From positions 1-63,829 of the forward strand of contig MHDQ01000207.1 in NCBI GenBank assembly GCA_001803565.1: DNA of 63,829 bases, in the 5' to 3' direction. The position numbers and the translations under genes are program-made. Of the stretch, positions 22,574 through 30,832 are shown piece by piece (position 1 is the stretch's first letter; each line of letters begins with the position of its first letter). The notes under the pieces were generated by a model, which was given only the letters and a program-made list of their open reading frames with translations, was not told the DNA's origin and did no database searches. Source of the DNA: Nitrospinae bacterium RIFCSPLOWO2_12_FULL_45_22. Its GTDB lineage: Bacteria > 2-12-FULL-45-22.

Positions 22574-25500
22574 ATGTCTCCAGAAAGACTTATTTTTAAT
22601 AATGGAAGAATGCAAAGAAAGAGCTTTGGCCGTATTCCTGATATTATTGATTTGCCAAATCTGATTGAGATCCAACAAGAGTCCTATGGTCGGTTTTTGC
22701 AATTAGACAAAAATCCTGAAGAAAGAGACGATATTGGGCTGGAGTCAGTATTTAGAAGTACCTTTCCTATAAGCGATTTTAGGGAAACCAATTTTCTGGA
22801 ATATGTCGGCTACGAGATCGGCAGTTGGGAGTGTCAATGCGGTGAATATAAAGAATTGGGCAGCCCTCGGGTTGTCTGCTCCCGCTGTAATCAAACGGTG
22901 GTACATAAACCTAAATACGATACCAATGAATGCCGGCAGCGGAGTATGACTTATGCAGAACCATTGCGTATTATGGTACGTTTAGTACTGAATGAAAAGG
23001 ACGAAGAAACCGGAGCATTAACCCCGATAGATGTTAAACAACAAAAAGTCTATCTTGGTGAGATCCCCTTAATGACTGAAAGGGGCACCTTCATCGTTAA
23101 TGGTACGGAGCGGGTAGTAGTTAGCCAACTGCATCGGGCACCGGGGGTTATCTTTGCCTATGACAAAGGAAAAACCCGTGCTAGTGGGAAACCCCTTTAT
23201 TCTGCCCGGATAATTCCCTACCGGGGTTCTTGGATAGATTTTGAATTTGATAGCCGAGATTTGCTTCACGTCAGGCTGGATCGGCGGAGAAAGCTTCCAG
23301 CGACTATCCTCCTGCGGGCATTAGGGCTTACTACTGAAGAGTTATTAAACCTCTTTTATAAAACAGAGGAAGTCTTCTATAACCCCAAAAAAGGGGTGTT
23401 TTACAAGAGAGTTAGCGATTTCTTACTCGGCCAAAAAATTGGTGAGGATATCGCAGACCCTGAAACGAGAGAAGTTATCACTAAGGCCGATAGACGGATA
23501 TCCAAAGGGGCTTTGCGTAGGATGAAGGCGCTGGGCATAGATCTGATAACGGTACCGGTTGATGAGTTAATTGGAAAGATCAGCGCCCAAGATATTATAG
23601 ATGAAGAGACCGGGGAACTTCTCTTAAAAGTTAATCAACCTCTTACCGAGGAATTATTACAGAAAGTCCAAGATTGTGCTGTGAGAGGCTTCAAAATCTT
23701 ATACATGGATAACTTCCGCTATGACTCTACTATTAGAGATACTCTGGCTATGGATAAAATAAACACCCCCCAAGAAGCCTTATTAGAGATATATAAAAGA
23801 CTGAGGCCAGGAGACCCACCTAATAAAGAGACAGCGGTCAATCTCTTTAACAACATATTTTTTAACCCCAAAAGGTATGATTTATCGAGGATTGGCAGGG
23901 TAAAACTCAATAGTAAGCTTAACCTGAACCTCCCTTTAGACCAACGGACTTTGACTACTGACGACATGATAGGAATAATCAAATGCCTTATCGAACTCCG
24001 CCATGGCATAGGTTCGGTAGATGATATAGACCATCTGGGTAATCGCCGGGTCCGCTCGGTAGGGGAGCTAGTAGAGAATCAGTTCCGGATTGGCATCGTC
24101 AGGATGGAGCGCGCTACTAGAGAAAGAATGAGTATACAAGAGCTAGAAGGAGCTATGCCCCATGACCTGATAAATGCTAAACCAGTCATAGCTGCTATAA
24201 GAGAATTTTTTGGTAGTAGTCAGCTCTCCCAGTTTATGGATCAGACTAATCCCCTCTCAGAACTAACCCACAAACGACGCCTCAGTGCCTTGGGGCCAGG
24301 GGGGTTAACTAGAGAGAGGGCTGGTTTTGAGGTGAGGGATGTGCATCCCACCCATTATGGTAGAATCTGCCCCATAGAAACCCCTGAGGGACCAAATATT
24401 GGCCTAATAGCTTCTTTGAGTACCTATGCCTGCGTTAATGAATATGGCTTTATTGAAACACCCTATCGGAGAGTGGAAAAAGGTAGGGTGACGGATAAAG
24501 TAGAGTATCTTTCTGCCTGGGAAGAAGATAAATATGTTATTGCACAAGCTAATGCCCCGGTTAAAGATAAAGGATATTTTACCTCCGACCTTGTCTCGGC
24601 CAGGAGCGGCAACGAATTCGTTATAGTTTCGCCAGACAAAGTAGATTATATGGATGTATCTCCTAAACAACTGGTGAGTATTGCAGCCGCTTTGATCCCT
24701 TTCCTGGAGAATGATGATGCGAACCGGGCTCTGATGGGATCCAATATGCAACGCCAGGCGGTTCCATTGCTGGCTACTGAAGCCCCTTTAGTAGGTACGG
24801 GAATGGAATATATTGCTGCCCGCGACTCAGGGGCAGTAGTAGTGGCGAAATCTTCTGGGACCGTAATCTCTGTTGATGCCAGTAAGATTGTAGTAAAGAC
24901 CGATGAAGGAAAAGAGGCTTCTATTTCCAGAATAGAACCTTATTACCTGACAAAATACCAACGCTCTAACCAGAATACTTGCATAAATCAAAAATCCTTG
25001 CCCCAGGAAGGAGAGCGGATAGAGAAGGGTGATATTATTGCTGATGGCCCAGCTACAAAAGGAGGGGAGTTGGCCTTAGGGAGAAATGTTCTGGTAGCCT
25101 TTATGGCATGGGAGGGATACAATTTTGAGGATGCAGTAATAGTTAGTGAAAAAATAGTCAAAGAGGACCTCTTTACCTCTATCCATATTGAGGAGTTAGA
25201 AATAGAAGCGAGAGACACCAAGCAGGGTAAAGAGGAGATCACTAAAGATATCCCTAATGTAAGCGAAGAAGCCCTCAAAAACCTCGATGAAAGTGGCATT
25301 ATCCGGAGTGGTGCAAGAGTCAAACCAGGTGATATCCTTGTAGGGAAAGTAACCCCTAAAGGGGAGACCCAATTAAGTCCGGAAGAGAAACTATTAAAGG
25401 CTATTTTTGGAGAAAAGGCGGGAGAGTTTAAAGATACTTCCTTAGTAGTTCCGCCGGGAATAGAAGGGGTAGTAATAGATGTCAAAGTATTTTCCCGGCG

Positions 25501-26725: not shown

Positions 26726-29700
26726 TTGGAAGGTATTTTTAATCTATTTGAAAAACCAAAAGATTCTCTACGGTTTGATGCTATACGGATCAGGATAGCC
26801 TCTCCTACAAAGATTAGATCATGGTCATCAGGTGAAGTAAAAAAGCCTGAAACGATCAATTATCGGAGTTTTAAGCCGGAAAGGGATGGACTATTTTGCG
26901 CTAAGATCTTTGGTCCTGTGAAGGACTGGGAGTGTCTTTGTGGCAAATATAAAAGGATGAAACACCGGGGACTCGTCTGTGAAAAATGCGGTGTTGAGGT
27001 TATTCAGTCCAAGGTAAGGAGGGAAAGGTTAGGCCATATCGAACTGGTTAGCCCGGTATCGCATGTATGGTTTTTTAAAGGGATTCCCAGCAGGATAGGC
27101 AATCTCCTGGATATGTCTCTCAAAGAGCTAGAGAGGGTGTTATATTTTGAAAACTATGTGGTTATAGCTCCAGGGGATACTCCATTGAAGCCATGCGAGC
27201 TCTTGACAGAAGAAAGATATCGGGATTTGCTAAATAGATTTGGTGATAAGTTTAAGGCCGGGATGGGTGCCGAGGCGATAAGGCAGCTTTTAGCATCTTT
27301 CAATCTAGATAAATTAGCCGAGGAGTTAAAGGCCGGGATACAAGGGGCTACTTCTATCCAGCGGAAAAAGAAGCTTATAAAGAGGCTTAAAATCGTGGAG
27401 GCCTTTCGTAAATCAGGTAACAGGCCAGAATGGATGATTTTAGAGGTGATACCGGTTATCCCGCCAGAACTGCGGCCCTTAGTCCCATTAGATGGGGGAG
27501 GTCGCTTTGCTACTTCTGACTTGAATGATTTGTATCGGCGGGTTATTAATCGAAATAATCGCCTACAGAAACTCCAAGAGCTTAAGGCACCAGAGATAAT
27601 TATTCGTAACGAAAAGAGGATGCTGCAAGAGGCAGTAGATGCCCTTTTTGATAATGGCCGCCGCGGGCGGATCATACGAGGAGCTAATAAGCGTCCCCTA
27701 AAATCCCTTAGCGACATGCTCAAAGGAAAGCAAGGTAGATTCAGGCAAAACCTACTGGGCAAAAGGGTGGATTATTCGGGCCGTTCGGTAATTGTAGTAG
27801 GCCCAGAATTGAAATTAAACCAATGCGGTTTACCCAAGAAAATGGCCATAGAGCTATTTAAACCCTTCATTTACCATAAACTGGAAGAGAAGGGTTATGT
27901 TACTACTATCAAAGGGGCAAAGAAGATGGTAGAGAAAGAGAGACCCGAGGTATGGGATGTGTTAGATGAAGTAATAAAGGACCATTACGTCTTGCTAAAC
28001 CGTGCCCCCACTTTACATCGCCTCGGGATCCAGGCCTTTGAACCGGTCTTGATCGAAGGCAAGGCCATCAGGATCCATCCATTAGTTTGTACGGCTTTTA
28101 ATGCCGACTTTGATGGCGATCAGATGGCAGTTCATATACCCCTTTCTACTGATGCCCAGCTAGAGGCTAAAGTGCTTATGTCCTCTGCTAATAATATCCT
28201 CTCTCCTGCCAATGGCAAGCCTATTGCTGTCCCTAGCCAGGACATTATCCTGGGCTGCTATTACCTGACTAAGGTACGGGGTGGCTCTAAGGGAGAAGGG
28301 AAGATATTCTCTAATTTTGAAGAAGTAAGGATTGCTTATGATACCCAGCAGGTAGGGTTGCAGGCCAAGATAAAAGTGAGGGTGGATAATGAATTGGTTA
28401 CTACTACCGTTGGTAGGATATTGTTATACGAAACCCTGCCGAAAGGAATAACTTTTCCCAGTGTCAACAAACAGATGAATAAGAAAGAGCTCACGGAACT
28501 GGTAGCAGAATGCTATAAAATAATGGGCCGGGAAGAGACCGTTATTTTTCTGGATAAACTGAAAGAGATAGGGTTTAAATATGCTACTAAATCCGGTATA
28601 TCCATTTCCATGAAGAATATGCGTATCCCTGCTAATAAAGAAATCTTAGTAGAAAAGGCCAGGAGTGATATTGTAGAGGTGGAGAAACAATACCGTGATG
28701 GATTAATCACTAATGGAGAGCGTTATAACAAGATTATTGATATCTGGGCTCAGGTAACTGAACAGGTCTCAAACGCGATGTTTAAGGAGCTAGAAGCAGA
28801 AGATGAGGCAGTAGTAAAAGGGTTAGAGGGCGAGAAGAGGGATTTTAATCCTATATTTATTATGGCTGATGCGGGGGCCCGGGGTAGTGCCCAACAGATT
28901 CGACAATTGGCTGGTATGCGGGGCCTTATGGCCAAGCCTTCAGGGGAGATCATTGAAACCCCTATTACTGCCAATTTCCGTGAAGGGCTTACGGTACTTC
29001 AATACTTCATCTCTACCCACGGAGCACGCAAAGGCTTGGCGGATACTGCCTTAAAAACCGCCAACTCCGGCTATTTAACCCGGAGGTTGGTCGATGTATC
29101 CCAAGATGTTATCGTAACCGAGGAAGATTGCCATACTCCCAATGGGATTGATGCTTCTGCGTTAGTAGAGAGCGGCGAGATCATTGAGCCCCTATCAGAA
29201 AGGATTATGGGGAAGATTGCCCTAGAAGATATATTAGACCCTTTTTCTGAAGAGGTCATTATTAAAGCTAATGAGATGATTGATGAGACATCCATAGAAA
29301 AGATAGAAAATACCTCCATTGATAAGGTTAAGATCCGGTCGGTCCTGACCTGCGAGTCTAAAGAAGGCATTTGCCGTATGTGCTATGGACAAAATCTTGC
29401 TACCGGCGAATTGGTGGAAATTGGGGAGGCGGTAGGTGTTATTGCGGCCCAGTCTATCGGAGAGCCTGGGACTCAGTTGACCATGCGGACTTTCCATATA
29501 GGTGGTGCTGCCAGCCGAACCGTTGAACAGACTACTCTGGAGGCTAAAAAAACCGGCATATTCAAATATATTAATCTAAAGACCGTGACCAATAAAGATG
29601 GTGATATAGTAGTAATGAATCGGAATGGTTGGGTAGCTGTCCAGGATGAAGAAGGCAGAGAAAGAGAGCGTTACCCAGTCGTTTATGGCGCCAGGTTAAA

Positions 29701-30832
29701 GGCCAAAGACGGCCAGATGGTCTCCGAAGGGCAAAGATTGGTAGAATGGAATCCCTATACCACCTTTATCTTGACCGAAGTTAGTGGTAAGGTAGCCTTT
29801 GGGGATATTATTGAAGGGGTTACTATGAAGGAAGAACTGGATGAGGTGACCGGCTTCTCCCAGAAGGTTATTGTTGAACATCAAGAAGAAAAAAGACAAC
29901 CCAGGGTAAATATTAAAGATCAAAATAATAAAACTATTGGTCGATATCTCTTGCCTGCCGGGGCGCATCTTGCCGTCTCTGAGGGAGACATAGTATATGC
30001 GGGAGATATAATTACTAAGATCCCCCGAGAAACTACCAAGACCAAGGATATTACTGGTGGTTTACCCCGGGTAGCAGAGCTGTTTGAAGCCAGAAAGCCC
30101 AAAGAGCAGGCTACTATCGCAGAAATTGACGGGACGATAAAGTTCGGTGGATTCGCCAAAGGTATGCGAAAAATCATTATTGCTAACGAGAATGGGGATG
30201 AACGTGAATACCTCATCCCCAGAGGGAAGCATGTGAGCCTCCATGAAGGAGAAAAAGTGAAGGCTGGAGAACCTCTGATGGATGGAGCAGTAAATCCCCA
30301 TGATATCTTGAATGTCTTAGGGGAAAAAGAATTACAAAAATATTTAGTAAATGAGGTCCAGGAGGTTTATCGCCTCCAGGGTGTAAGTATAAATGATAAG
30401 CATATAGAGGTTATTGTACGTCAGATGCTCCGGCGGGTAGTCATTGAGGAGCCGGGAGATACCGATTTTTTGGTGGGAGAACAGGTAGAGAAGGAGTTAT
30501 TCAAGAGAAGGAATGAGGAAATTATAGCCGAGGGTGGTAATCCTGCCAAGGGCCGACCTCTGCTGTTGGGTATTACTCGGGCTTCTTTAAGTACAGATAG
30601 CTTTATTTCCGCTGCCTCGTTCCAGGAAACCACACGGGTCCTTACTCAAGCTGCTGTGAGTGGGAAAGTGGACCGCTTAAGGGGCCTTAAAGAGAATGTT
30701 ATTATGGGCCGTTTGATCCCGGCTGGAACTGGAGCCCGATTCTACCAGAATATCCGCCTAAGAGCGCAAGAAGAGATAAGCTCCAAGGAAGAAGTGGAGC
30801 AGGACTTAATGACATCAGCCGTTCGAGAATAG
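26726..30832 (+). CDS. rpoC: RNA polymerase beta' subunit
   Basis: Catalytic core subunit, 1368 aa. The N-terminal zinc ribbon is CLCGKYK (Cys70, Cys72) with CEKC (Cys85, Cys88). The active-site motif [10 protein letters not shown] is at residues 459-468. The second zinc site lies in [15 protein letters not shown]. After the trigger-loop motif [12 protein letters not shown] a long extra segment (roughly 190 residues) precedes [12 protein letters not shown], as in diderm lineages with the SI3-type insertion. The start is TTG at 26726 with AAGGGGGGA upstream, just after the repeat element. Confidence 0.97.

Follow-up and report, generated by a model that had tools for sequence, protein, structure and literature searches.

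The RNA polymerase beta subunit (RpoB) encoded in the analysed stretch of 63,829 nucleotides (the window) carries an in-frame insert of 28 aa within its beta1-lobe, which is specifically related, on profile and shuffling comparisons, to the N-terminal zinc ribbon of the beta-prime subunit (RpoC) encoded by the adjoining gene. We consider it likely that the insert descends from an ancient duplication of the RpoC ribbon within the operon, that it probably binds zinc and that it now serves, at the upstream side of the enzyme, as an acidic module with a structural or docking role. The two genes stand in the ordinary gene order (nusG, rplK, rplA, rplJ, rplL, rpoB, rpoC, rpsL, rpsG, fusA), the genes being named from their sequences, and the identities of rpoB and rpoC are backed by the family models TIGR02013 and TIGR02386 (Table 1). 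A Pfam search found RpoB to be a normal beta subunit with the full set of its domains, and the Pfam library gave no useful match on the insert itself.

Table 1 Coordinates of the rpoB and rpoC features in the window.
Feature	Position	Strand	Basis
rpoB, RNA polymerase beta subunit, 1353 aa	22562..26623	+	ORF; TIGR02013, 1828 bits
rpoC, RNA polymerase beta-prime subunit	26726..30832	+	ORF with TTG start as put by the ORF finder; TIGR02386, 1852 bits
Beta1-lobe insert, aa 88-116, zinc-ribbon-like, net +28 aa	22823..22909	+	Segment comparison, insert-only profile, AlphaFold2 pLDDT
First knuckle, Cys91-x-Cys93	22832..22840	+	Sequence; codons 22832-22834 and 22838-22840
Second knuckle, Cys106-x2-Cys109	22877..22888	+	Sequence; codons 22877-22879 and 22886-22888
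RpoC N-terminal zinc ribbon, presumed paralogue	26924..27004	+	Insert-profile match, E 2.2e-5

An earlier note, made from the letters of the window, had placed the insert between LEYVGYEIG and PKYDTNEC, counted its four cysteines from the ATG and likened it to the RpoC ribbon with nearly the same cysteine spacing. The ORF sequence and the net gain of 28 aa over insert-free RpoBs confirm the location (the distance from FP to TY is 64 aa in the window RpoB, against 36 aa in most insert-free RpoBs), the cysteine positions are correct, and the spacing, C-x-C-x12-C-x2-C, is in fact identical in the two segments, which also have W-E-C-x-C-G-x-Y-K in common. The likeness itself is borne out by family models, by profile searches of the genome and the PDB and by shuffles. 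TIGR02386, the NCBIfam RpoC model, matches RpoB aa 86-115 in register (20.1 bits, E 1.1e-4), and four RpoC-family models match the inserts of the window and of Desulfurobacteriaceae at the same place. When the whole genome was searched in six frames with an insert-only profile of 13 relatives' inserts, the window sequence being left out, the best match was RpoB itself (22820-22909, E 2.8e-16) and the second was the RpoC ribbon (E 2.2e-5), with nothing significant beyond these two (next E 1.13). Against the PDB, the same profile matched RpoC or the cyanobacterial gamma subunit, at the ribbon, in 59 of the best 60 of 81 matches, the odd one out being archaeal subunit P, and a longer profile repeated the RpoC/gamma result (best 60 of 87). 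Three PDB matches named 'beta' have the same sequence as RpoC. We know of no solved structure of the RpoB insert, since no RpoB was among the PDB matches listed for the insert profiles (best 60 of 87 and best 60 of 81).

The resemblance is not confined to the cysteines. With these held fixed, none of 20,000 shuffles of the window insert reached the RpoB/RpoC score (p 5e-5), and the same procedure applied to 13 relatives (5,000 shuffles each, several scored against the window RpoC ribbon instead of their own) gave p values of 0.0002 to 0.004. A 64-position profile found matches in 350 of the 386 genomes surveyed; the recurring non-RpoB match, among those listed, covered the ribbon part (positions 21-48, E 1e-5 to 1e-7) and is read as the RpoC ribbon. 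Conversely, a profile of 44 RpoC ribbons matched single inserts with up to 31 bits and multi-cysteine inserts with up to 17 bits; it matched no insert-free RpoB, one weak match being the RpoC part of a fused RpoB-RpoC. The profile kinship of the insert with the RpoC ribbon is better than with any other family. These are small scores, the homology of an insert of about 28 aa resting on 20-31 bits, and Aquificales inserts, whose first knuckle is C-x2-C, score no higher than about 3-5 bits when compared with the RpoC ribbon.

The AlphaFold2 model of RpoB 18-640 (64 aligned homologues) matches E. coli RpoB, and the insert is modelled in it with short strands and high confidence (pLDDT 90-92), which does not appear to be the outcome that the earlier note had named as speaking against a ribbon, a predicted structure without a metal-binding fold. 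Modelling of the ribbon alone was mediocre (pLDDT 74, pTM 0.38); Foldseek with this model placed E. coli RpoC on top with a weak score (E >0.5), and VIA-align returned eight chains with weak Z values of 2.1-2.5, including a TFIIE subunit, Nob1, aRF1 and CopA, RpoC not being among the chains with Z of at least 2. Several of the matched stretches in these chains are zinc ribbons.

In the beta1-lobe, the insert follows strand 77-86 and precedes strand 132-146 (AlphaFold2 model strands, shifted by 17). The beta1-lobe (Rpb2 protrusion) is close to the upstream portion of the transcription bubble and bears the CarD/Mfd docking surface (PMC4593161), and it acts jointly with the sigma finger in guiding the template strand (PMC4593229). 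The placement close to downstream DNA made in the earlier note was dropped, as both papers put this lobe near the upstream part of the bubble. From the order of strands in the model, the insert is expected at that end of the beta1 sheet which lies opposite the CarD/Mfd docking motif (DVKQQ). In the window RpoB this motif, at aa 154-158 (about 23021-23035), has VKQ where many bacteria have IKE, and VKQ also occurs in an order-mate of the window genome (L203). Three Nitrospina relatives (L120, L121, L122) and two further loci (L034, L036) have an additional stretch, some tens of residues long, inserted directly before the docking motif.

All four cysteines are retained in most inserts. A tally of 70 distinct inserts out of 80 loci, window included, found all four in 62, the third alone in 3 and none in 5, with no two- or three-cysteine inserts among the 70; by position, the third cysteine is present in 65/70, the fourth in 62/70 and the first-knuckle pair in 62/70. 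With one locus outside the tally (L088), which has all four, the total is 63 of 71 distinct sequences, and a lack of cysteine conservation in close relatives, the other finding that the earlier note would have counted against its proposal, was thus not encountered. Cysteines have been lost in at least three lineages, namely Entotheonella, the G138/G275/L111 group and Nitrospina relatives, and in the loci concerned (L092-L098, L111, L151, L152, L158, L212) the length of the insert is kept or is one residue shorter while the cysteines are lost near-collectively. This is what a shared ligand site predicts and supports a metal site, the four cysteines of the RpoB insert probably holding a zinc ion. 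The existence of cysteine-less forms shows that the metal is not needed in every lineage. W, GEY and LGG are strongly conserved among inserts and are retained in the cysteine-less ones, and wherever the RpoC sequence of a lineage with cysteine-less inserts was read, RpoC keeps its own four cysteines.

The insert is in-frame, at one site and confined to certain lineages. It was found in all 51 Aquificota sampled and in 54 of 60 genomes of Nitrospinota (the phylum of Nitrospina), the other six giving no match whatever, RpoC included, as expected with that contig missing. Named carriers include Nitrospina, Candidatus Entotheonella, other Tectomicrobia, Thermovibrio and Desulfurobacterium, and about 33 of 386 genomes in a broad sample bear some form of the insert. 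These forms comprise a single ribbon, a longer multi-cysteine form (at least 8 Cys), a divergent four-cysteine type and a cysteine-less type; in Aquificota other than Desulfurobacteriaceae, the sequences read have two cysteine pairs, mostly C-x2-C, and the same LGG or LAG motif. Longer cysteine-rich inserts, which the earlier note had mentioned for a few phyla, do exist at the same beta1-lobe site in several lineages (L142-L150), with at least 8 Cys and apparently a second set of CxxC pairs, and the 44-RpoC-ribbon profile indicates that they too are related to the RpoC ribbon. Mapping on RpoB trees, also suggested there, was done with the insert columns left out and placed all carriers in one 61-row set (SH-aLRT 98) that includes 15 insert-free rows. 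Parsimony on the RpoB tree requires three changes. Constraining LGG-type rows together gave a likelihood slightly above that of the free search (p-AU 0.525), and constraining all insert types together was not rejected (p-AU 0.462). Judged from these trees, one gain of the insert, with or without losses, is possible, as are several separate gains.

In one Nitrospinota family (f266; L034/L235 = G449 and L036/L234 = G479), RpoB contains a second RpoC-like ribbon, GGWECGCGEFKFKKPEGQDVICGKCHKK, near aa 380-440 (aa 380-403 in L034/L235, from about aa 440 in L036/L234), which from its place in the sequence would belong to the beta2-lobe. This second copy supports the view that the module can be copied to new loops. 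A broader picture, which we offer tentatively and hold to be possible rather than probable, is that the polymerase throughout a large branch of the bacteria has two ribbons with a shared ancestry, one on beta and one on beta-prime. The module would have been copied more than once within the rpoB-rpoC operon, the beta2-lobe ribbon of the Nitrospinota family being a further copy, and in sublineages it would have been extended to longer multi-cysteine forms or stripped of its metal; ancestors of the insert-free lineages nested among carriers may have had it and then lost it.

The sequence of events that we favour is that, at an early date, about 28 codons for the N-terminal zinc ribbon of RpoC were copied into the adjacent rpoB, in its 5' part, where they would have been inserted between two beta-strands of the beta1-lobe and then kept by the lineage. 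We infer copying from RpoC to RpoB, not the reverse, because the RpoC ribbon occurs in nearly every genome searched and the RpoB ribbon only in some. Convergence, in which an unrelated zinc ribbon or a new cysteine hairpin arose at this loop and resembles RpoC because small ribbons look alike, would be eased by the shortness of the segment, and would accommodate both the weak matches of the ribbon-only model to other ribbons and the different knuckle spacing of the Aquificales form; we nevertheless regard it as quite improbable, given that the similarity extends beyond the cysteines in the cysteine-fixed shuffles, that RpoC is the single non-self match in the genome and, with gamma, dominates the best 60 of 81 PDB matches, and that W-E-C-x-C-G-x-Y-K is shared. 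As to what the copied ribbon does, three features suggest a compact module, upstream of the cleft in position, with a structural or protein-docking role: the acidic shift (mean net charge of -1.6 for RpoB inserts against +1.8 for the RpoC ribbon), a W..GEY..LGG core that outlasts the cysteines and a predicted site away from the CarD/Mfd motif.

The same evidence bears on the other possible roles. The insert might act like the beta-prime zinc domain, contacting upstream DNA or nascent RNA and tuning pausing or open-complex stability, as it is the same module, sits in a lobe that is near the upstream bubble and guides the template strand (PMC4593161, PMC4593229), and has a counterpart in beta-prime that can bind RNA, namely HK022 put RNA (PMC9378689). 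However, the insert no longer has the basic character of the RpoC ribbon, whose KYKRMKHR stands as EYKELGSP in RpoB, so such behaviour cannot be assumed; for an acidic insert, set against an RNA-binding beta-prime domain, we consider a structural or docking role likelier than nucleic-acid binding, and we judge the zinc-domain-like role unlikely. Replacement or modification of the CarD/Mfd docking site appears very improbable: the insert is in the same lobe, but it is expected at the opposite end of the sheet, and a search for CarD and Mfd domains in 58 genomes found an Mfd-sized match in nearly all insert-bearing genomes and a CarD-sized match in many. The insert therefore does not generally accompany loss of either, and the idea that it stands in for CarD was rejected. 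Five genomes with cysteine-less inserts (G095, G233, G293, G138 and G275), from three lineages, have one Mfd-sized match each and none of CarD size, an observation on few genomes that would fit a link to the docking site. The strongest rival to the structural or docking reading is a mainly stabilising role, the insert being a tolerated surface decoration that steadies the lobe without regulatory function. Loss of the cysteines in at least three lineages with length kept is in line with this, as is the near-dispensability of beta-i4 and beta-i9, inserts elsewhere on RNA polymerase (PMC2939025), but the presence of the insert across the Aquificota and Nitrospinota sampled and the strong conservation of W, GEY and LGG are less easily reconciled with mere tolerance, and we consider this role somewhat unlikely.

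No enzyme of gene expression has been studied more than RNA polymerase, yet to our knowledge most of what is known about its lineage-specific parts comes from a small number of model species. A module of the core enzyme that was copied between its large subunits and kept throughout two phyla would be a testable case of a self-copied part, and the series of variants (with zinc, without zinc, multi-cysteine, at a second site) offers a natural way to test the role of a ribbon at the upstream face. As a marker, the insert may also help to trace the deep history of rpoB, a subject that takes in the debate on where the Aquificota polymerase genes came from. In the papers available to us we found no description of a zinc ribbon at this RpoB site or of its kinship with RpoC, and an earlier survey may have listed it.

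Among known systems, the insert is most like the RpoC N-terminal zinc-binding domain, with which it shares the C-x-C-x12-C-x2-C spacing, the W-E-C-x-C-G start and profile kinship in both directions. It differs in lying in the beta1-lobe of RpoB (aa 88-116) rather than at the beta-prime N-terminus at the RNA exit, a location that makes it a paralogous copy and not the beta-prime zinc domain itself; it is also acidic rather than basic, has an LGG turn where RpoC has KHR, is absent from most phyla and has lost its cysteines in some lineages. The longer cysteine-rich inserts (L142-L150) share its insertion point, and their first half matches the RpoC ribbon (17.2 bits in L145, 15.9 bits in L149), but they make RpoB 57-65 aa longer than insert-free forms, contain at least 8 Cys and lack the LGG motif. 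With the numbered lineage-specific inserts of RNA polymerase in the nomenclature of Lane et al., such as beta-i4, beta-i9, beta-i11 and beta-i12 and beta-prime i2 and i6 (PMC2939025), it has in common that it is in-frame, at a fixed site in an otherwise conserved subunit and present in some lineages only. The inserts described in that paper are 43-283 aa long, and those among them with a described fold are SBHM or beta-beta-prime-module domains (PMC2939025), whereas the RpoB insert is a 28-aa ribbon and, unlike them, akin to a core element of the enzyme itself.
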